Source: Bacteroidia bacterium (GTDB taxonomy: Bacteria > Bacteroidota > Bacteroidia > B-17B0 > Aurantibacillaceae). From it: a stretch of DNA of 61,530 nt. The stretch's first letter is position 1. Every line of letters starts with the position of its first letter. Below the pieces are notes generated by a model, which was not told the origin of the DNA, ran no database searches, and was given only the letters and a program-made list of their open reading frames with translations. Shown in pieces: positions 39,658-49,957 of the stretch. The DNA lies in contig JALHRL010000004.1 in NCBI GenBank assembly GCA_022841465.1, positions 114,608 to 176,137 on the forward strand, written 5' to 3'. The translations under genes and the position numbers were made by a program.

Positions 39658-39972
39658 ATGAAATTTGACCCAAATGCAGGCAGTTTAATTCCATTAGAAG
39701 AAGCTGCGGAAATGACCAGAACTTATCGAGATTTGAATCCCGATGACACCATTGCTCATTATTTTTCGAGAGAAATTATTGATGAGCTTTTGCGTGATAA
39801 TAGTTTAGTAGGAATAAGAATGTATTATGGCCTCGACCCCAACAACGAAAAAGCAAAAGAACTAATTTTAGTTGGCGTTGATCGTGATGGAAATGATGTT
39901 ACAAGTAAGGTGGCGGATAAAGGAACTAAATGTCCTATTGTTTGTAGCAATGCTAACGAACTTAATTCATAG
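39658..39972 (+). CDS. Small conserved protein of a two-component module
   Basis: A 104-aa soluble protein beginning MKFDPNAGSLIPLEEAAEMTR, with a central IRMYYGLDPNNEKAKELILVGVDRDGNDV-type segment (about 56-84) and a closing CPIVCS with two cysteines. I recall many such proteins in Bacteroidota, usually unnamed, but no established function. Its stop is directly followed by the TTG start of the membrane protein, so it is the first gene of a four-gene operon. It may be the signal-sensing or output partner of the kinase. Confidence 0.7.
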   Translation: MKFDPNAGSLIPLEEAAEMTRTYRDLNPDDTIAHYFSREIIDELLRDNSLVGIRMYYGLDPNNEKAKELILVGVDRDGNDVTSKVADKGTKCPIVCSNANELNS

Positions 39973-40614
39973 TTGACATATATTCAGATAATTAGTTATT
40001 GTTCAACGGCAAGCACCCTAATACCATTGGGTGTTTTGCTTTTTTATTTTAAAGAGCTTAATAAACCACTAAAAATTCTAACTACTCTTTTGCTAGTTAG
40101 TTTGATTTGTGACATTATCAATTTAGTTATTGCAATTAAACATCTCAATAACACCCCAATATTCACTTTATATACATATTTAGAGGGTTTAATTTTAATT
40201 TTCTTTTATTACAACGTTTTCGAAAAACAAATACTTAAAAAAATCTCATTAATTCTTTTAATACCATTAACTTTCGCTTTATTAATTGGCACATTATATA
40301 CTAAAAACATTTTCATTGTTAACACAATTAATAACGTAACAGAAATTATAATTTTAATAGCACTTTCACTTCTCTTTTTCTACAATTTATTGAAAGACTT
40401 AATTATCTTAAACTTGTATTCCTATTATCTTTTTTGGATCAATTCTGGAATATTAATAATTTCATCGCTAAGTTTATTCTTTTTTCTTTTTGAACAGAAA
40501 ATTGAAGGTAACTTGTCATTAGCCTACCTCTGGCTTATTTTTTATTTCGTTAATATCATTTTTAGATTACTTTTACTAATAGGAATATGCAAGTATATAA
40601 AACAGAAGACATAG
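39973..40614 (+). CDS. Seven-helix membrane protein, probable sensor partner of the kinase
   Basis: A 213-aa integral membrane protein with about seven hydrophobic helices and short loops. The start is TTG with no gap after the preceding gene. It has no recognised domain. The histidine kinase gene begins within its last 28 bases, and that kinase has only one membrane helix and no sensor domain, so this protein may supply the sensing part. That role is inferred from position. Confidence 0.65.
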   Translation: MTYIQIISYCSTASTLIPLGVLLFYFKELNKPLKILTTLLLVSLICDIINLVIAIKHLNNTPIFTLYTYLEGLILIFFYYNVFEKQILKKISLILLIPLTFALLIGTLYTKNIFIVNTINNVTEIIILIALSLLFFYNLLKDLIILNLYSYYLFWINSGILIISSLSLFFFLFEQKIEGNLSLAYLWLIFYFVNIIFRLLLLIGICKYIKQKT

Positions 40615-41390
40615 CAATAGTTATATTTATTGGTACTGGTGCTTTTGCTTTGGTTATTATTGCACTCTTTCTTTTTATTAGACTTTATCAAACTCGAATG
40701 CGCGATAAAGAAAATCAACTTTTACAATTAGAAAGTGATAGTAGATTGAAGTTGCTAAAAAGCGTAATGGAGGCGGAAGAAAAGCAAAAAGAAATTATCT
40801 CAAAAAACTTACACGATGAAATTGGCACAGCTCTTACCGTTTTAAAAATGAATATTAATAATTTAGGTGATGAATTAACTCCATCTAATTCAACAGAAAT
40901 AGAATTATTAAATAATAGTATTGATAATGTGATAAGCGATATTAGAGCAGTTTATCGCGATTTGATTCCCCGCGAATTGAGTATATTTGGATTAAACAAA
41001 GCGCTCACGCAATTCTGCAACACTTCTAGTGAGACTACTAAATTGAAATTAACTTTAGAAAGTTATTACAATGCCTTTTTTAAAAACCAAACAAACGAAT
41101 TAATTTATTTTAGGCTTTTTAAAGAAGTACTTAATAATATCATGAAGCACTCGAAAGCCACAATTATTGATTGTAAAATACAACAAAATGGAAATGTTTT
41201 AACAACAACCTATTTATACAACGGAAAAGGTACAAGCAATTCGGAAATAGAAGATATTAAAAAAAACACAACCGGCATTGGCTTAAGCAGTATTGATAGT
41301 AGATTAATGGTTTTAAATGGGCACATTAATTACACAACAATTCCACAAGGTAATTTAATTAAAATAACAATACACAACAATGGCCTCTGA
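40587..41390 (+). CDS. Sensor histidine kinase (NarL-type, HisKA_3)
   Basis: A 267-aa kinase. One membrane helix (about 8-30) is followed by a short coiled coil. The dimerisation/phosphoacceptor motif SKNLHDEIGTALTVLK is near 71-86, with the phosphate-accepting His in LHDEIG. The ATP-binding domain has FKEVLNNIMKHSKAT (N-box, about 177-191) and a G-box TGIGLSSIDSRL near 228-239. No input domain is present. It overlaps the membrane protein upstream and the response regulator downstream, so all are translationally coupled. Confidence 0.9.
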   Translation: MQVYKTEDIAIVIFIGTGAFALVIIALFLFIRLYQTRMRDKENQLLQLESDSRLKLLKSVMEAEEKQKEIISKNLHDEIGTALTVLKMNINNLGDELTPSNSTEIELLNNSIDNVISDIRAVYRDLIPRELSIFGLNKALTQFCNTSSETTKLKLTLESYYNAFFKNQTNELIYFRLFKEVLNNIMKHSKATIIDCKIQQNGNVLTTTYLYNGKGTSNSEIEDIKKNTTGIGLSSIDSRLMVLNGHINYTTIPQGNLIKITIHNNGL

Positions 41391-42063
41391 TTATATTATA
41401 AAGGTAGCAATTGCCGAAGACCATGATTTGGTTCGCGAGGGAATTAAAAAACTAATTGAAAAAAATAAACGATTAAAAGTTATTGTTACGTCGGGTAACG
41501 GAGCTGAACTCTTAAACAGTTTGATTATATCGCCTGTAGATGTTGTTATTTGTGATATTGATATGCCGATTATGAATGGTAAAGAGGCCTTAATTGAAAT
41601 TATAAGATTACATAAAAACACGAAAGTAATTATGCTTAGCATGTATTTTCAGGATTCGTATGTGGAAGAATTTACAGTTTTGGGAGCTAAGGGATTTTTA
41701 CCAAAAAACATAACCAGTAAAATTTTAAATGATGCCATTTTAATGGTGCACGAAAAAGGGCATTACTTTCATGAAGAAACATCTAAATTACTTTTGGCAC
41801 GTTTAATGCAAGAAAAAAAATTAGTTCCAATTGTACAGGCATTTGATTTATCTGAACAGGAAAAAAGTGTGTTAAAATTAATTTGTGAAGAAAAAAACTC
41901 AGGCGAAATTGCAGAAGTACTTTGCTTAAGTAAACGTACCATTGAAAACATACGTGCTAATTTATTAGATAAAACCAATAGTAAAAATTTAGCCGGCCTT
42001 GTTATATATGCTTTGCGCCATAAAATTGTTGATATTTCTAATTTTGAAAAAAAGAAATTTTAA
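41380..42063 (+). CDS. NarL/FixJ-family response regulator
   Basis: A 227-aa DNA-binding regulator. The receiver domain (about 6-125) has AEDHDLVREGI, the phospho-acceptor Asp in VVICDIDMPIMNGKE (about 54-68), and Lys in FLPKNI. The LuxR-type HTH (about 155-215) has LSEQEKSVLKLICEEKNSGEIAEVLCLSKRTIENIRANL in type. It is the cognate partner of the kinase with which it overlaps by 11 bases. The palindromes on both sides of the operon (39466-39526, 42223-42259) are plausible targets. Confidence 0.92.
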   Translation: MASDYIIKVAIAEDHDLVREGIKKLIEKNKRLKVIVTSGNGAELLNSLIISPVDVVICDIDMPIMNGKEALIEIIRLHKNTKVIMLSMYFQDSYVEEFTVLGAKGFLPKNITSKILNDAILMVHEKGHYFHEETSKLLLARLMQEKKLVPIVQAFDLSEQEKSVLKLICEEKNSGEIAEVLCLSKRTIENIRANLLDKTNSKNLAGLVIYALRHKIVDISNFEKKKF

Positions 42064-42581
42064 CTCCTCTCTATAATACGTTATTGATTTTTATTATCTG
42101 TTATGCTAATCAATAATAATCCTTGCACACTAAAGAAAATCACTTCCTTACAATAATTATTTATTGCTAAAACCAAGATGCTTTTAAATTTATCTTTATT
42201 GCTAAACAAGAAGCACAAATAAAGAGTATTTATACTCCATTTTAGAGTATAAATACTCTATTTTTTGGGTTAATAAAGTTATTATTATACTGATCGTCAA
42301 TAGAACTAAAAAAACTAAAGAAATGGCTATTATTGAAATATTAAAATAAAAAAAAGAGATTTATTAATAATTAAGGTATCAAAAAATGTTCAATTTGGAA
42401 TAACCAAATAATATTTAGAATAAATGAGTTTTACATAAGTTAATTGATAATAAAAATGAAAAACATAAGTAAGCTATAAAATTTAATCTAAATGCCGCTT
42501 CTAATTCAAATTCCAAAAAATCAATAAAATAAAATAAAACCAAAAGGAACCAATGATTCAAAATTAAAATATATTATCAAA
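42064..42581. promoter_or_regulatory. Gene-free region with a second pair of palindromes
   Basis: AGAGTATTTATACTCC (42223-42238) and AGAGTATAAATACTCT (42244-42259) form a pair 21 bases apart. The next 55 bases resemble those after the pair at 39511 (T-tract, GG, GTTAATAA, GTTA, then ACTAAAA), so the two regions look like copies of one promoter. Here only a tiny open frame (from 42323, eight codons) follows. Nothing else is recognised before the next gene at 42582. Confidence 0.55.
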
Positions 42582-43598
42582 ATGGAAGATAAGAATACCG
42601 TAGAACAAGAAATTGCAATACTTGTAAAACAACGTGATACTCTCAAAAGTGAAATTGAAGCTTACAAAAGCGACATTAATATAGCTACAGAAGGTAAACC
42701 AACTTTAAATGAACTAATGACATCTCGACTTTCGAATATGGAGTTAGCAATTATAACTATTTCGGATAATATTGATAAAATCAACGCATTTCATAACGAA
42801 CTACTCATTCCAAAAGAGGGGCAATCAAAATCACAACTTGAATTTTTTAATGAAACATTAGATAAAATTTCTACTGACAAAACAAAATCAGAAACAGAAT
42901 TAAAAGCTATTGAAAGTTTTAAAACAGAAGTATTTGGCGATTCTGAAAAAAACATCATTGGACAAAAACAACGGATTGATATACTCGAAGAAGAAATTAA
43001 AAAGAATAAAAAGACTTGGGAAGAAAACGCAGAAACGCTATTTAAAAAAATTGAAGGGCTTTTACCTGGGGCTACAGCTTCTGGATTGGCAAAAGCATAT
43101 CAAGATCAAAGAGTTTCTTATAACAAGCCGTATTGGTTGTGGGCAACCGTTTTCGTTCTAACCATGTGTGGAACAATTTTATTTGCAGTTTGCAATATAC
43201 ATGATGCTAGCTCTGTTGAAGATGCATTTATGAAAATAATTTCAAGACTTCCATTTTTCATACCTGCATTTTGGCTTGCGATTTTCGCAAGTAAACAACA
43301 AAGTCAAAATAAGAGGTTACAGCAAGAATATGCATACAAAGAAGCATTAACAAAGTCCTATGAGGCAGACAAAAGGGAAATTGAAAAACTACCTGCTTCG
43401 CCCGAAAAAGATAAACTTTCAACAAAACTATTAGAAACAATGATTGATGCTGCAAATTATAATCCAAGTGAAACATTAGGCAGTAAAACACACAATGATG
43501 AACCACCAAGCATATTTGAATTGTTTAAAATAAATTTACTAAAAAAATTAACTAACGGCGAATTATTAAAACAAACTTTAAACTCAACAAAATCATAA
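42582..43598 (+). CDS. Coiled-coil membrane protein of unknown function, partner of the amidohydrolase
   Basis: A 338-aa protein. Residues 1-165 are almost all charged helix with heptad-like spacing (coiled coil). A short conserved-looking segment GLLPGATASGLAKAYQDQR (about 158-176) follows. Two membrane helices come next (about 183-204 WLWATVFVLTMCGTILFAV and 220-238 LPFFIPAFWLAIFA), then another helical cytoplasmic tail with Pro-rich ends. I do not know a named family. The amidohydrolase gene starts 19 bases after it, so the two form an operon inside a defence-rich island. Confidence 0.7.
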   Translation: MEDKNTVEQEIAILVKQRDTLKSEIEAYKSDINIATEGKPTLNELMTSRLSNMELAIITISDNIDKINAFHNELLIPKEGQSKSQLEFFNETLDKISTDKTKSETELKAIESFKTEVFGDSEKNIIGQKQRIDILEEEIKKNKKTWEENAETLFKKIEGLLPGATASGLAKAYQDQRVSYNKPYWLWATVFVLTMCGTILFAVCNIHDASSVEDAFMKIISRLPFFIPAFWLAIFASKQQSQNKRLQQEYAYKEALTKSYEADKREIEKLPASPEKDKLSTKLLETMIDAANYNPSETLGSKTHNDEPPSIFELFKINLLKKLTNGELLKQTLNSTKS

Positions 43599-43617
43599 TA
43601 GTAAATTGAAGAACAAT

Positions 43618-44982
43618 ATGAAATTCACAAGCGAACAAATAGATTTTATTGCTAAAGCCAACCAAACAATTAGTGATGATCCGAAATCAAGAATAAGTCA
43701 GGTAGTAAGAGATGTATTAAACGAAAACAATTACGTTTTTGATGCACATTGCCATATTTTTGATGGCGATTGCATTAATGTAAAATATTTAGCCACACGA
43801 ATGATTGCCGGTGCCTACGGACGGTTCAAAGCTTGGATTTGGAGATTGGTAACCGGTGAACAATACTCATCAAATAAATCTATTTTATCAACGGAACAAA
43901 TGATAGATTTGATTTACGAAGACCCAAAAATCTTGCCAGATAAGGATTTAGCTTCTGCGATAAGTCGCATGGAAAAAGAACTTGACTTAATGGAAGAAGA
44001 AGCTAAAAACATGAAAAGTGCAATGGCTTTTGATTTAATTGAATTCATTAAAAGATACAAAACCATTATTTGGTTGTTGAGGAGTGGAAGTATGGAAAGT
44101 GTTTACAAGGTTTTTGAAACAAACTATGCAATTCACCAGGTTATTAATTACCGAACTAATGGAAACAAAAAACTACTAACCGTTGCATTAGGCATGGATT
44201 TAAATAGTGGCTGGGAAGGAAGTATTCCAAAAACCTGGGAAGAACAAAATAAAGAGCTCGCCGCAGTATCAAAAAACTATCCTATTCTACCCTATTTTCC
44301 AATAGATCCAAGACGAACAAATTTGTATTATGAGTTTCTAAAGGCGTTTAATGAAAATAATCCACAATTTTTTGGTGTTAAGTGTTACCCGGCTCTTGGA
44401 TACCTTCCATCTGACGAACGTTTAATGCCTATTTTTCAAATATGTGAAGAAAAGAATATACCAATTATGACACACTGTGGTGGGGAAATCATTTCAACTT
44501 TTGAAAATCCAATTAAAGTGAACAGACTTGGTGAAATTATAACCATCAATGATTCGAATAGAAAAGACCGAGCCCGAAAATTAAATGAACCTAAAGAATG
44601 GATACCTGTATTAAACCAATATAAAAAACTAAGACTTTGCTTGGGGCATTACGGGGGTGGAGCTGCCTGGGAAAATAAACCAAGTACTGCACATAGAATA
44701 CCGGAAATTTTAGATATGATGAAGCAGTATAATAATCTTTACGCTGATTTTTCATTTAACCTTGAGTCTTTAACTGCAATTCGTAATTTCAGGAATAAAT
44801 TATTTAAAGATGATGACCATGGCAAATTAATGAAAGAAAGATCATTATTTGGAACAGATTTTTGGGTAATACTTCCACTTTCTGATTTGATAACAGACCA
44901 ACATAATTTTATTGTTGAAACAGATGATTTAATAAATGAACTTGTAAAAACAAATGTTTTGAAGTATTTAAGCCTTGTGTAA
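43618..44982 (+). CDS. Amidohydrolase-fold metal-dependent hydrolase in a defence-rich island
   Basis: About 454 aa from the ATG at 43618 (a TTG four codons earlier is less likely). All parts of an amidohydrolase TIM-barrel site can be seen: HxH in FDAHCHIFDGD (about 37-47), a Lys in FFGVKCYPALGY (about 252-263), His in PIMTHCGGE (about 290-298), His in LCLGHYGGG (about 343-351) and Asp in LFGTDFWV (about 418-425). A region between 60 and 170, after the first motif, is a helical insert unlike small amidohydrolases. The substrate is not known. Coupling to a coiled-coil membrane protein and position next to Septu and CBASS suggest an antiphage role, which is inference. Confidence 0.8.
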   Translation: MKFTSEQIDFIAKANQTISDDPKSRISQVVRDVLNENNYVFDAHCHIFDGDCINVKYLATRMIAGAYGRFKAWIWRLVTGEQYSSNKSILSTEQMIDLIYEDPKILPDKDLASAISRMEKELDLMEEEAKNMKSAMAFDLIEFIKRYKTIIWLLRSGSMESVYKVFETNYAIHQVINYRTNGNKKLLTVALGMDLNSGWEGSIPKTWEEQNKELAAVSKNYPILPYFPIDPRRTNLYYEFLKAFNENNPQFFGVKCYPALGYLPSDERLMPIFQICEEKNIPIMTHCGGEIISTFENPIKVNRLGEIITINDSNRKDRARKLNEPKEWIPVLNQYKKLRLCLGHYGGGAAWENKPSTAHRIPEILDMMKQYNNLYADFSFNLESLTAIRNFRNKLFKDDDHGKLMKERSLFGTDFWVILPLSDLITDQHNFIVETDDLINELVKTNVLKYLSLV

Positions 44983-45159: not shown

Positions 45160-46395
45160 ATGGAAAATAATAACTTTAAACATATGACAATTTCTGACTG
45201 GAAACAGTTTGAAAAAGTGGATATAAATTTTCATCCTCAATTGACAGTATTAACTGGAGCAAATGGAAGTGGCAAAACGACAATTTTAAATTTGCTTTCA
45301 AGACATTTTGGGTGGAATCATTCTGAATTGGCAACTCCTGCTAAAGAGGAATCGACAGGTATTTTTAAATTTTTTCAAAGATTTTTCAAAGCTCCAAGTG
45401 CAAGCACAGAAAATAAAATCGGAGAATTGAATTATTCAAATGGTAAAAAAGCAGACCTGACAATTAATAATAATAATTCTGCTCAATACTCTGTAAATAT
45501 TCCGGGACAACAAACAATACAAGGCATTAGTATTCCATCTCATAGACCAAGCTACTTTTACAAACCAGTTTCACAAATTCAAACTACCAAACGAACAAAA
45601 AGGAATGCACACGATTTAGCTTATGGCAGTTCACAAAACTATTATTTCGGTGGTGGTGGACAATCAAGCAATTATTATATAAAGGAAACTCTGTTAAATT
45701 GGGCTATTGGCGGTAGTGGAAATGAGTTTATTGTTGCAGACATAGAACTTAAAGAGCATTTCTTAGGATTTCAGATAGTCTTAAAAAAGGTGTTACCCAA
45801 AACTCTTGGATTTAAGGAAATTTCAATAAGAAATTATGAAATAGTTTTGATTACAGACTCAGGAGATTTTATGTTGGATGCTGTTTCTGGTGGAGTAAGT
45901 GCAATTATTGATTTGGCTTGGCAGATATACACCTATACAAACAAAGGAGACGAATTTATGACTGTTCTAATTGACGAAGTAGAGAATCATCTCCATCCAA
46001 ATATGCAACGTTCCATATTGCCCGATTTACTTTCTGCTTTTCCAAATATTCAATTCATTGTTTCTACTCATAGCCCTTTAGTAGTTGGTTCGGTAAAAAA
46101 CTCTAACGTTTACGCATTTAGACACAAAAACGTTGAAGGTAAGTTTAGAGTTGTAAATGAAAAATTAGACCTTGTAAATAAGGCAAGGACTGCAACAGAA
46201 ATTTTAAACGAAGTTTTAGGTGTTCCTTTTACAATGCCGCTTTGGGTGGAAGACAAACTTAATGAACTTGTAACAAAATATACACAGCAAGAAATTACAG
46301 AAAATACTTTTGATAATATGCGTGCCGAATTAAAAGAAATAGGATTAGAAGAATTAATGCCTGAGGCAATGAAAAAAACTTTGAACAAAAAATGA
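45160..46395 (+). CDS. ptuA: Septu defence ATPase PtuA-like
   Basis: A 411-aa AAA/SMC-like ATPase, related to the RecF/OLD group but without a TOPRIM nuclease domain. Walker A is GANGSGKTT (33-41), the signature is VSGGVS (242-247), Walker B is TVLIDEVENH (268-277) and the switch His is in VSTHSP (301-306). The insert (about 55-190) is rich in Ser, Asn and Gly and poorly conserved. Its 3' end overlaps an HNH nuclease gene by 4 bases (ATGA). Together they form the two-gene Septu antiphage system, in which PtuA recognises the threat and PtuB cuts nucleic acid. Confidence 0.87.
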   Translation: MENNNFKHMTISDWKQFEKVDINFHPQLTVLTGANGSGKTTILNLLSRHFGWNHSELATPAKEESTGIFKFFQRFFKAPSASTENKIGELNYSNGKKADLTINNNNSAQYSVNIPGQQTIQGISIPSHRPSYFYKPVSQIQTTKRTKRNAHDLAYGSSQNYYFGGGGQSSNYYIKETLLNWAIGGSGNEFIVADIELKEHFLGFQIVLKKVLPKTLGFKEISIRNYEIVLITDSGDFMLDAVSGGVSAIIDLAWQIYTYTNKGDEFMTVLIDEVENHLHPNMQRSILPDLLSAFPNIQFIVSTHSPLVVGSVKNSNVYAFRHKNVEGKFRVVNEKLDLVNKARTATEILNEVLGVPFTMPLWVEDKLNELVTKYTQQEITENTFDNMRAELKEIGLEELMPEAMKKTLNKK

Positions 46396-47036
46396 TTAAG
46401 TTAAATAAAGGAAATGAACCAGCTGTTTTAGCAGCCAACAAAGTTAACTGGACAGCTCAGTTGAGAGCATTGCAAAATGCAAATCAAGTTGTTCCGAAAT
46501 CTTTAGCGACTTCCTATAACCAAGATGAAGTTAAAGATGCCTTGAGGGTTGAATGCTACAGTAAGTGTATGTATTGTGAAAGTAAAGTTGAACATATTTC
46601 CGACCTACATATTGAACATATTAAACCAAAGGCAAAGGACAAATTCCCTGACCTGACCTTTGAATATGAAAATTTAGGACTTGCTTGTCCTGTGTGTAAT
46701 CGTGGGAAATCAGACACATATGACAATATGCTTCCTTTTATAAATCCTTACGTGGACGACCCGACAAATCACTTTTACGCTGTTGGTGCATTCGTATGGG
46801 CAAAGCCAGGTGACCAGAGGGCTAAATTGACAGAAAATGAAATTGATTTAAATAGAAGCGATTTAATCGAGACAAGAGGAGAAAGAATGAAAACTATTAG
46901 GGAATTAATAGACTCATTTCATAGTCAAACAAATCAAACATTAAAAGAATCAATTAAAAAACAAATTTTAAAAGAGGTGGACAAAGACAAAATTTACTCT
47001 TTTTGTTGCAAGACTTTAGTTGACAGTGCGACATAA
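46392..47036 (+). CDS. ptuB: Septu defence HNH endonuclease PtuB-like
   Basis: A 214-aa protein with an HNH domain. The first zinc cysteines are CMYC (59-62). The catalytic HIEHIKPK follows (73-80, with His as the general base), then Asn94 in YENLGLAC, and CPVCN (99-103) closes the metal site. The C-terminal 90 residues are helical. It is translated together with PtuA. The pairing of a lone ABC-type ATPase and a small HNH protein is the defining layout of Septu. Confidence 0.87.
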   Translation: MIKLNKGNEPAVLAANKVNWTAQLRALQNANQVVPKSLATSYNQDEVKDALRVECYSKCMYCESKVEHISDLHIEHIKPKAKDKFPDLTFEYENLGLACPVCNRGKSDTYDNMLPFINPYVDDPTNHFYAVGAFVWAKPGDQRAKLTENEIDLNRSDLIETRGERMKTIRELIDSFHSQTNQTLKESIKKQILKEVDKDKIYSFCCKTLVDSAT

Positions 47037-47251: not shown

Positions 47252-48127
47252 ATGGCAAACCTACACTCACAGTTCAAAAAGTTTGAAGAACGAATTTCTT
47301 TAACAGCTACACAAAGAGATTTGATTGTAAAGCGACATTCAGCATTAAGGACAGTAATAATAAATTACTTTAAACAGAAAAATGGAGTTTCGGTTCCTGA
47401 CTTTTTTATTCAGGGTTCATACAAGATGAACACAATGGTTCAAAAGAAAGATGGGAGTTTTGATGTTGACTTAGGTGTCTTCTTTCCTCAAAAACCAACT
47501 CTTACTCCTACTACAATGCAATCAAATGTTCTTGAAGCGGTAAGAAACCAAACAACAAATGGGGCACAGCATTTAAGAAAATGTATAAGAGTAAATTATG
47601 TTGGCGAGTTTAACGCAGACTTACCTGTTTACTATCAAGTTGGGACTAACGGACAAGCATACATCGCTGTAAAAAACGGTGACTGGATAAAGGACGACCC
47701 AGAAAAATTTGTGAATTGGGTAAATGGTATTCGTAAGACTAAAGAAGTAGGAAATGATGGACAACATTTGCGAGTAATTAAATATTTAAAGAGATGGGCT
47801 AACCTTTTACCTTTTAAAACTCCAAGCGGAGTAGCACTTACTGTTTGGATTACAAACAATTTTTCCGCAAGTAGAGATAGAGATGATGATGCCTTACTAA
47901 AAACAATTAACGGTATCTATTCAGGTTTTTGGTGGTCAGTTTCTTGTCAATGTCCAGTAGAGCCATTTGACGACTTGCTAAGTAATTTGGATAGCTCTCA
48001 AAAAGATAAATTTAAAGAAGCACTTGGAAAACTTAAGGACGATGCAGCAAAAGCATTAAGTGCAACTGATACAAATTTAGCTGTTTCCTATTTGGCAAAA
48101 CATTTTGGGGACAAGTTTAAAGTATAA
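47252..48127 (+). CDS. CBASS cyclic-nucleotide synthase (CD-NTase)
   Basis: A 291-aa nucleotidyltransferase of the cGAS/DncV-like superfamily, which makes a cyclic dinucleotide or oligonucleotide signal after phage infection. The active site is GSYKMNT (55-61), FDVDLGV (70-76, with Asp71 and Asp73 binding metal) and the third acid in NADLPVY (121-127, Asp123). The helical second half contains LRVIKYLKRWANLLPFKTPSG (about 173-193), typical of the family. Its partner is a TIR-STING effector; STING-linked CD-NTases are known to make c-di-GMP, so that product is expected here. It is the first of a two-gene operon with a 3-base gap. No Cap2/Cap3 ancillary genes are seen. Confidence 0.88.
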   Translation: MANLHSQFKKFEERISLTATQRDLIVKRHSALRTVIINYFKQKNGVSVPDFFIQGSYKMNTMVQKKDGSFDVDLGVFFPQKPTLTPTTMQSNVLEAVRNQTTNGAQHLRKCIRVNYVGEFNADLPVYYQVGTNGQAYIAVKNGDWIKDDPEKFVNWVNGIRKTKEVGNDGQHLRVIKYLKRWANLLPFKTPSGVALTVWITNNFSASRDRDDDALLKTINGIYSGFWWSVSCQCPVEPFDDLLSNLDSSQKDKFKEALGKLKDDAAKALSATDTNLAVSYLAKHFGDKFKV

Positions 48128-48130
48128 AAA

Positions 48131-49075
48131 ATGGCAGACTATAAAAAGAAAATATTTATTGGTTCTTCATCAGAAGAACTAACCCTTGCAGAAGAAGTAA
48201 GAAACCAATTACTGACTAACTATGATGTTACCATTTGGAATGAAAAAGTTTGGGACACTTCTGTTTTTAAAATCAACCAAAACTTTCTTGCTGACTTACT
48301 AAAAGCTTCGCTTCAATTTGATTTTGGAATATTAATCGGAACAACAGATGACAAGGTAGTTTTCCGTGACGAAGTGGTGATGCAACCAAGAGATAATGTA
48401 ATTTTTGAACTTGGTTTATTTACTGGAAGACTAGGGACTTCAAAATGTGCTTTCCTAATTGAAAAAGATGTAAAGTTGCTTTCAGACTTTAAAGGACTTA
48501 CGCTTGCATACTTTGACAAAGCATCGTCTTCTTCGCTTGAAAATGCAGTCAAAGGAATTGAAGAAATGTTCTTTGCAAGTGCTGATGATGAAATAAATTT
48601 TTTTCCTTCAGCAACATTAGCATCAGTTTACTTTACTAATCTTATAACTCCAGTTTGCCGACATATAATAGAAAACGGTGGATTTACAATTAAAGATACT
48701 ACTTACAAAAAGTGTAAAGTCAATGTAATTGTGCCTGACAAAATAAATGATGATGTCAATCTTCAATTTGAAAAGTTAAAATCGAGTAAAACAACTGAGA
48801 CTGTTTCTTTCAATTATGCTGGCAGACCAAGAAGTATAATTATAGATGCACAAATAGAAAATGAAACAGTTGTGTTTCTAGAGTTTCCTACAATCATTGC
48901 AGGCATTAACCATAGTATTTCAAATTTACTTCCTCACGACTTCAACAAACAAAGCCCTGACTATAATTCAATACTTGAAAGAGAATTGAGAAGGTTTATT
49001 ACAACACTTAAAAAATTGCTCATACGCAACTCGTTTGACGAGTTGGTAATTGTAAAACGTGAAAGTGAAATATGA
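48131..49075 (+). CDS. TIR-STING effector of a CBASS system
   Basis: A 314-aa two-domain effector. Residues 5-155 form a TIR domain of the type found in bacterial STING fusions: KKIFIGSSSEELTLAEEV (6-23), then MQPRDNVIFELGLFTGRLG (84-102), where Glu93 is in the place of the NAD+-cleaving glutamate. Residues about 159-311 match the prokaryotic STING domain, with FPSATLASVYFTNLITPVC (158-176), CKVNVIVPDKINDD (195-208) and a late ERELRRFITTLKKLLIRNS (283-301). I recall the same order in the Sphingobacterium TIR-STING. Binding of the cyclic nucleotide would drive filament formation and NAD+ depletion. It has no membrane helix, unlike animal STING. Confidence 0.88.
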   Translation: MADYKKKIFIGSSSEELTLAEEVRNQLLTNYDVTIWNEKVWDTSVFKINQNFLADLLKASLQFDFGILIGTTDDKVVFRDEVVMQPRDNVIFELGLFTGRLGTSKCAFLIEKDVKLLSDFKGLTLAYFDKASSSSLENAVKGIEEMFFASADDEINFFPSATLASVYFTNLITPVCRHIIENGGFTIKDTTYKKCKVNVIVPDKINDDVNLQFEKLKSSKTTETVSFNYAGRPRSIIIDAQIENETVVFLEFPTIIAGINHSISNLLPHDFNKQSPDYNSILERELRRFITTLKKLLIRNSFDELVIVKRESEI

Positions 49076-49284: not shown

Positions 49285-49306
49285 TTAATTGATAATAAAT
49301 CTAAAA

Positions 49307-49957
49307 ATGGAAAATCAAATAAAATATAACCCAAAAAGTGTAATAGCTCACCCGTTTAAATTGTTTGCAGACTATAATTCTAATTTTTTAATAATTGGTT
49401 CCTTTCCTACAACAACTAATCGAATTTCGTTTGACTTCTATTATCCGAATTCAAATAATAAGTTTTGGAAAATCTTGTATAAAGTATTTCCAAAAAGTAA
49501 AACCAAATTAAATCTAGAGGTATCAGTTAAAGATAACCCTCTTGTAAAAGCTAAAAACAAAAAAGACAGAGAGCTTTTTTGTAAGGAAAACAAAATAGCA
49601 ATTACAGACATTATTGCCTCCTGCATAAGAATGAATAATAACTCAAAGGATAGTCAGTTGCTAGTTCATCAATATACTGATATTATCGAAATTTTAAAAA
49701 AGCACAAATCAATAAAAAGAATAATTATAACAGCAAAAAGTTTGGGTTCATCTGCTAATCATCACTTTTATCAGTACTTGACAATGAAAGAAATAGAGTT
49801 TAACATAGACTCTTCTGGAGAATTCCCAGAAGGATTGATAGAAGTTGATGGTAGGAAAATTAGTGTTGTAAGTTTAGATTCGACATCAAATCGCAACACT
49901 CATGTTAATTCAAATGAATTAATTCGATTTTACAAAAAAGCTTTTAATAGTATTTAA
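49307..49957 (+). CDS. Uracil-DNA-glycosylase-like protein near CBASS
   Basis: About 216 aa from the ATG at 49307; a TTG six codons earlier is the alternative. The pattern FLIIGSFPTTT (27-37), then FYYPNSNNKFWKILYKVF (44-61), KIAITDIIASC (about 95-105) and a C-terminal LDSTSNRNTHVN segment fits the uracil-DNA glycosylase fold, closest to the hypoxanthine/mismatch branch with GSMP...FWP-like motifs. It lies on the same strand 229 bases after the TIR-STING gene. It may be a DNA repair gene, or a base-excision defence factor. The family call is moderately sure; the role is unknown. Confidence 0.6.
   Translation: MENQIKYNPKSVIAHPFKLFADYNSNFLIIGSFPTTTNRISFDFYYPNSNNKFWKILYKVFPKSKTKLNLEVSVKDNPLVKAKNKKDRELFCKENKIAITDIIASCIRMNNNSKDSQLLVHQYTDIIEILKKHKSIKRIIITAKSLGSSANHHFYQYLTMKEIEFNIDSSGEFPEGLIEVDGRKISVVSLDSTSNRNTHVNSNELIRFYKKAFNSI

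Follow-up and report, generated by a model that had tools for sequence, protein, structure and literature searches.

The amidohydrolase P0002, which is encoded in the 61.5-kb window (the whole stretch of DNA that was analysed), rather probably belongs to a rare family of immune effector enzymes that are protease-gated in those clades in which protease genes are linked to them, and on the same assessment P0002 and the membrane protein P0001 encoded directly upstream are separate items of a defence island and not a conserved pair. A preliminary description of this DNA had regarded the two genes as a candidate two-gene defence system and had named the separate occurrence of their homologues in other genomes as the observation that speaks against it. 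This is what the co-occurrence check across genomes revealed. A link to defence holds for the amidohydrolase, half of whose relatives adjoin CHAT or trypsin-like proteases, some of them in EAD11/NACHT loci and one in a type III-A CRISPR operon, but not with the partner that had been proposed.

Organization of the locus

As described before, P0001 is a 338-aa protein with two membrane segments, which a simple hydropathy scan places near residues 186 and 219, and P0002 follows on the same strand after a gap of 19 bases, with the P0001 stop ending at 43598 and the P0002 ATG at 43618 (Table 1). An alternative TTG start at 43606 would add four residues to P0002; the position of the ATG is the start in five of the seven orthologues of the clade to which P0002 belongs, termed window clade in the following. 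The earlier placement of the two genes upstream of Septu and CBASS was confirmed by the identification of PtuA, PtuB, a CD-NTase, and the TIR-STING effector Cap12. P0001 and P0002 are perhaps encoded on one transcript. At E-values up to 1, no family of PADLOC-DB 2.0.0 matched P0001 or P0002, and all NCBIfam matches of both proteins were far below cut-off.

Table 1. Features of the locus with their positions in the window
Feature	Position	Strand	Basis
P0001, 338-aa protein with two membrane segments (ATG start)	42582..43598	+	ORF and hydropathy
P0002, 454-aa amidohydrolase of the ACMSD-like / Amidohydro_2 kind	43618..44982	+	Pfam, alignment, fold model
P0002, N-terminal extension before the barrel (residues 1-38)	43618..43731	+	alignment by eye
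P0002, helical insert between b1 and b2 (residues about 55-182), candidate gate	43780..44163	+	fold model, topology
Septu PtuA, separate neighbouring system	45160..46395	+	PADLOC
Septu PtuB, separate neighbouring system	46392..47036	+	PADLOC
CBASS CD-NTase, separate neighbouring system	47252..48127	+	Pfam, PADLOC, NCBIfam
CBASS TIR-STING effector Cap12, separate neighbouring system	48131..49075	+	Pfam, PADLOC, NCBIfam

On the 3' side of the CBASS genes, a uracil/hypoxanthine-DNA-glycosylase-like gene was found at 49289-49957 with matches below curated cut-offs. On the other side of the locus, genes for a 104-aa protein, a 213-aa membrane protein, a histidine kinase, and a response regulator occupy positions 39658-42063, and a terminator-like element, consisting of a perfect inverted repeat of 14 bases, a loop of 7 bases, and a subsequent T run (42224-42266), lies between the response regulator gene and the P0001 gene. 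Look-alikes of the genes for the 104-aa protein, the 213-aa protein, and the histidine kinase flank the amidohydrolase loci L034 and L035, as judged by eye and for the 213-aa type also by search. This histidine-kinase cassette was dropped as a lead because its 213-aa protein type is common in the genus, with homologues in 24 of 40 genomes.

Fold and metal site of the amidohydrolase

P0002 matches the Pfam family Amidohydro_2 (PF04909) with 37.4 bits at a cut-off of 26.4, and the metal site is complete (HxH, Lys, His, His, Asp), as had been noticed earlier. The residues H46, K255, H286, H344, and D414 are invariant in all 17 family members, and H44 is conserved in 16 of them. The exception is a relative with 70% identity (L109:8995-10386), in which Tyr replaces this first metal-ligand His. 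The fold model of P0002 (pLDDT 90.4, pTM 0.91) is a TIM barrel that aligns with 4dlf (Z 20.9, 260 residues aligned, rmsd 3.0) and, with lower Z, with BB4693, LigW2, dihydroxybenzoate decarboxylases, IDCase, and ACMSD. The nearest solved folds of P0002 are catabolic decarboxylases and hydrolases (LigW, LigY, ACMSD, dihydroxybenzoate decarboxylases, IDCase), with which a metabolic role would be compatible. At the sequence level, solved structures gave one weak match for P0002 (3irs, E 0.14). TatD-type nucleases were absent among the best 50 structure matches listed, which excludes nothing.

The long helical insert seen earlier in the sequence is also found in the fold model, where about 128 residues, forming helices at about 55-182, lie between the strands b1 (39-46) and b2 (185-191). 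We take the b1-b2 loop of such barrels to be on the catalytic side, which defines the position of the insert by topology and makes it a candidate gate in the model. The segment from R61 to M159 comprises 96-100 residues in the window clade, with 142 in L114, compared to 71-80 residues in protease-linked members and 40 in the basal L124. The N-terminal extension of P0002 is common in part to most of the 17 family members in an alignment inspected by eye.

Coupling of the amidohydrolase family to proteases

Relatives of P0002 were collected by an alignment-based pattern scan of 84,980 species genomes, which requires exact peptide patterns, whereas a single-sequence pattern scan found none owing to the limit of its patterns. 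From the 18 resulting loci, L125 and L126 were excluded before counting because their matches were partial and distant, and 16 near-full-length relatives (L109-L124) were kept as the family sample. The family is rare, being found at E 1e-60 in 3 of 395 genomes of the class, own genome included. Viral scans revealed no amidohydrolase, and seven plasmid records match P0002 over less than half its length with about 22-31% identity.

Half of the relatives (8/16), which span several families and include a Bacteriovoracaceae MAG, Chryseobacterium sp. JM1 (L118), and Thermobacterium salinum (L122), have a protease gene directly upstream on the same strand, and the protease and amidohydrolase genes overlap or are at most about 50 bases apart. 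Six of the proteases are of the caspase-like CHAT type (L116, L117, L120, L121, L122, and L123) and two are trypsin-like (L118 and L119). For CHAT, the proteases of L116 and L122 exceed the Pfam cut-off and those of L117 and L123 fall just short of it, while the proteases of L120 and L121, which have no Pfam CHAT match, were assigned to this type by their similarity to the other partner proteins; they are 43% identical to each other, and each is about 41% identical to that of L117. All six CHAT proteases share the putative catalytic His and Cys, and both trypsin-like ones share His, Asp, and Ser; which of the residues are catalytic is assumed here from known motifs.

Some of these loci encode further components. 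The proteases of L116, L118, and L120 carry EAD11 domains with matches above cut-off, and NACHT-type ATPases are indicated by NACHT matches above cut-off in L120 and sub-threshold in L116 and by an NPHP3_N match above cut-off in L118. In L116, which originates from a Saprospiraceae MAG, all genes are on one strand in the order csm2, csm3, csm4, csm5, NACHT-like, EAD11-like, EAD11-CHAT, and amidohydrolase, with csm2-csm5 representing a type III-A CRISPR operon. The same protease models found nothing in 30 control loci with other amidohydrolases, several of which share one genus; because the models were built from the partner proteins, this control covers these protease types only.

In 395 genomes of the phylum, a partner-type CHAT model had only four matches at E 1e-15. 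One match corresponds to the L117 locus. Two others are accompanied by EAD11-SIR2 proteins and by the gene of a large ATPase, which looks STAND-like by eye, and the fourth is located near restriction-modification-like genes (by eye). As these CHAT proteins stand beside different neighbours, the effector slot next to them seems to be exchangeable. Adjoining genes for EAD11-SIR2, a large ATPase (STAND-like by eye), and a CHAT protease are found at L153:683-6021 and L155:3233-9276; the protease of L155 is an EAD11-CHAT protein, and both loci are apparent EAD11 immune cascades. With regard to possible unlinked activators, the window's own genome encodes two long CHAT proteins elsewhere and has no match to the partner-type CHAT model at E 1e-15. 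At L085:4919-7923 and L087:4519-7454, a gene identified by eye as that of a patatin-like phospholipase comes directly after, or overlaps, an amidohydrolase gene; the two may be a further enzyme pair.

In the phylogenetic tree, the 17 family rows form one clade (100/100) versus five outgroup amidohydrolases. The six CHAT-linked rows group together (90/88), as do the two trypsin-linked rows (97/96), and the eight-row window clade (100/99) joins the latter with modest support (87/87). Thus, the window clade is nested inside a family that is half protease-linked. The two protease models had no match in the window or in the other seven window-clade loci, of which L115 offers less than 1 kb of upstream sequence. 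Defence genes are located near three of the eight window-clade loci, namely the window, L114 (AbiEi/AbiEii and a type I methylase), and L111 (type I methylase); the other five were judged by eye except for one gene of L110, which was scanned. By eye, the genes around L112 and L113 look like housekeeping genes, and inspection of the seven other window-clade loci by eye revealed no shared metabolic neighbours.

Separate occurrence of P0001 and P0002

No P0001 homologue was found in any of the 16 loci of the amidohydrolase family by single-sequence search or with a family model (E limits 0.01, 0.1, and 1e-5), with only about 1 kb of upstream sequence present in L115 and L117. The P0001-free relatives include L110 and L109, which are 76% (over 454 columns) and 70% identical to P0002, respectively. 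Conversely, no amidohydrolase was found at E-values up to 1 among the 263 ORFs of 19 loci with P0001 homologues, of which L047 and L048 are the same gene, L032 and L033 contain weak homologues only, and four are from plasmids. The closest P0001 homologue, which is 73% identical and from the same genus, lacks an amidohydrolase in the 18.5 kb that were read, and a homologue with 44% identity (L031) is also without one. In a sample of 87 genomes of the order, four match P0001 and 15 match the amidohydrolase, mostly with other amidohydrolase kinds, and both genes were matched only in the window's own genome. Because homologues of the two genes occur apart in this way (0/16, 0/19, own genome only), the pair was rejected as a system. 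This case illustrates that genes of a defence island may be adjacent and closely spaced without forming a system.

Genes for a membrane protein and an amidohydrolase are paired repeatedly in other loci, but there the membrane protein is from an unrelated family and the amidohydrolases are more distant. Members of this other family have an N-terminal membrane segment and a C-terminal GAPFWF motif, and the three members scanned gave no significant Pfam match. In 7 of the 30 control loci, their genes immediately precede those of more distant long amidohydrolases, and a further copy lies near the window-clade member L111 (L034:9271-10524, L035:8795-10090, L036:8547-9851, L079:5781-6833, L098:7289-8290, L099:7029-8030, L100:7033-8082, and L111:842-2017). 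Six of eight copies in the 87 order genomes adjoin an amidohydrolase, and at L156:5479-7514 a copy immediately precedes a gene that was identified by eye as that of an ACMSD-like amidohydrolase.

Most likely, P0001 itself is an independent membrane effector of mobile elements whose position upstream of P0002 is incidental. Its homologues are found on nine viral contigs and in 34 plasmid records, and the region common to them is the C-terminal part with the two segments. From these 34 records, which include Vibrio and Agrobacterium plasmids, four regions with a homologue were read; in these four, the homologue is a hypothetical protein, and neither there nor on the viral contigs was a constant partner found. 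Two PHROG families of unknown function, 34659 and 30912, match P0001 or its homologues. In phage records, neither P0001 nor P0002 was found at E 1e-3. The sole Pfam match of P0001 is a sub-threshold one to DivIC (16.5 bits at a cut-off of 28.9), solved structures gave no sequence match, and long helices are seen only in a fold model of low confidence (pLDDT 66.8, pTM 0.31) that is too poor for a structure search. P0001 has no SLATT match in Pfam or PADLOC at E-values up to 1, and one homologue has a weak match to RTasSLATT of PADLOC (E 0.009); a SLATT family search had no signal in any genome, control genomes included.

Two homologues have distinct neighbours. At L031:8451-10085, the homologue with 44% identity follows 6 bases after a gene for a 184-aa protein with sub-threshold matches to PPPDE/LRAT peptidases. 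On an Acinetobacter plasmid (L021:3944-6711), a homologue is encoded behind TniB and TniQ, after a gene for a 479-aa protein without a Pfam match.

Comparison with known systems

In bacteria, activation of effector enzymes by proteases has recently been demonstrated for nucleases (Tuck et al. 2025, PMC12799240). In the pro-nuclease/protease pairs of Hachiman (HamM), AVAST, and Canu described there, blocking insertions are cleaved, which yields an active DNase. The amidohydrolase loci are similar to these pairs in that a hydrolase gene is combined with a gene for a trypsin-like or caspase-family protease in unrelated immune systems. The active-site-covering insertions of the nuclease could correspond to the b1-b2 helical insert of P0002, which the model and its topology place on the catalytic side. 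In contrast to the metallo-beta-lactamase-fold DNase of these pairs, the enzyme is an amidohydrolase TIM barrel, and the adjacent protease, which the pairs of Tuck et al. 2025 have, is present in 8 of the 16 relatives and missing from the window copy.

According to Kaur et al. 2020 (PMC7159879), effector-associated domains join proteases, NTPases, and effectors in EAD-linked conflict systems. EAD11, CHAT, trypsin, and NACHT, which are components of these systems, occur in amidohydrolase loci; the word amidohydrolase is absent from the main text of that paper. The plan of the pair suggested at first resembles the HAD hydrolase with a transmembrane protein and other membrane-partner systems from P2/P4 hotspots, as presented by Rousset et al. 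2022 (PMC9122126), but the HAD hydrolase belongs to another hydrolase class and the pairing of P0001 with P0002 is not conserved.

P0002 shares its fold and metal-site residues with ACMSD-like / Amidohydro_2 (PF04909) enzymes and is distinguished from them by the long b1-b2 insert, the N-terminal extension, and the immune-type neighbourhoods of its family. Among the matches listed for the open-licence PMC literature, no description of an amidohydrolase-protease immune pair was found, and the open-licence matches for EAD11 were unrelated by title. The new aspect is an amidohydrolase as a kind of candidate immune effector; this novelty lies in the protease-linked cousins of P0002, while the gene logic is already known.

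Proposed function and alternative explanations

Since the gene logic is the same as in the pro-nuclease/protease pairs, protease gating is by analogy taken as the likeliest mechanism for the protease-linked clades, in which the amidohydrolase is probably a gated proenzyme; for the window copy, a function as effector appears likeliest. In this model, a sensor, which may be a NACHT-type protein or a type III-A CRISPR complex tied in by EAD11 in some loci, would detect infection, and the CHAT or trypsin-like protease would be assembled and activated. The active protease would then cleave the helical insert or displace it from the catalytic face, and the amidohydrolase thus released would attack a cellular small molecule or macromolecule, thereby stopping growth. 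The window clade would have lost, or never had, the adjacent protease. Direct observations comprise the coupling of the genes, the conservation of catalytic residues, the fold, and, by topology, where the insert lies; the effector role, the gating, the cleavage, and the toxicity are inferred. A more far-reaching version, which we put forward tentatively, is that a protease-gated proenzyme with amidohydrolase fold is the killing arm of several unrelated immune systems (EAD11/NACHT, type III-A CRISPR) and that the window copy represents a later branch that works without a protease, possibly with a new connection to a membrane protein. The immune-effector function is opposed by the loss of one metal-ligand His in L109, by the window clade without protease, and by the catabolic nearest folds, and the family sample comprises 16 relatives.

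The catabolic folds would be explained if P0002 were a metabolic enzyme that decarboxylates or hydrolyses a small aromatic or heterocyclic acid and that reached the island by chance, with the protease links of its cousins reflecting another branch whose function has changed. Window-clade members without protease and the loci L112 and L113, in which no defence neighbours were seen by eye, agree with this. The lack of common metabolic neighbours in the seven other window-clade loci (by eye), the known defence genes near three of the eight clade loci, and the nesting of the clade in a half protease-linked family nevertheless render a metabolic function rather unlikely. An accessory regulator, e.g. 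a hydrolase that removes the signal molecule of a neighbouring immune system instead of killing, would suit the vicinity of signal-making systems (CBASS here and type III-A CRISPR in L116). It is very improbable given that inspection of the remaining 15 family loci by eye revealed no recognisable CBASS or CRISPR genes and that the recurrent partner is a protease.

A real pair, in which P0001 detects infection at the membrane and thereby activates the hydrolase, would have to be a young or rare two-gene system found so far only here, and P0001 would occupy the upstream slot that is held by a protease in sister clades. The common strand with its 19-base gap, the defence neighbours, the use of this slot by CHAT or trypsin-like proteases in 8 of 16 relatives, and the unrelated membrane family that immediately precedes other amidohydrolases in 7 of 30 control loci are compatible with such a pair. 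It is nonetheless improbable, as P0001 is missing near all 16 relatives, even those with 76% and 70% identity, and as the amidohydrolase is missing from all 19 loci with P0001 homologues, among them the one with 73% identity from the same genus. The preferred explanation is therefore that of an effector enzyme standing separately from P0001.

In the amidohydrolase family, protease coupling extends to an enzyme class other than nucleases. The operon in L116 would connect type III-A CRISPR to a cascade of NACHT, EAD, and caspase-like proteins, and the protease-linked amidohydrolases suggest a new kind of protease-switched immune weapon.
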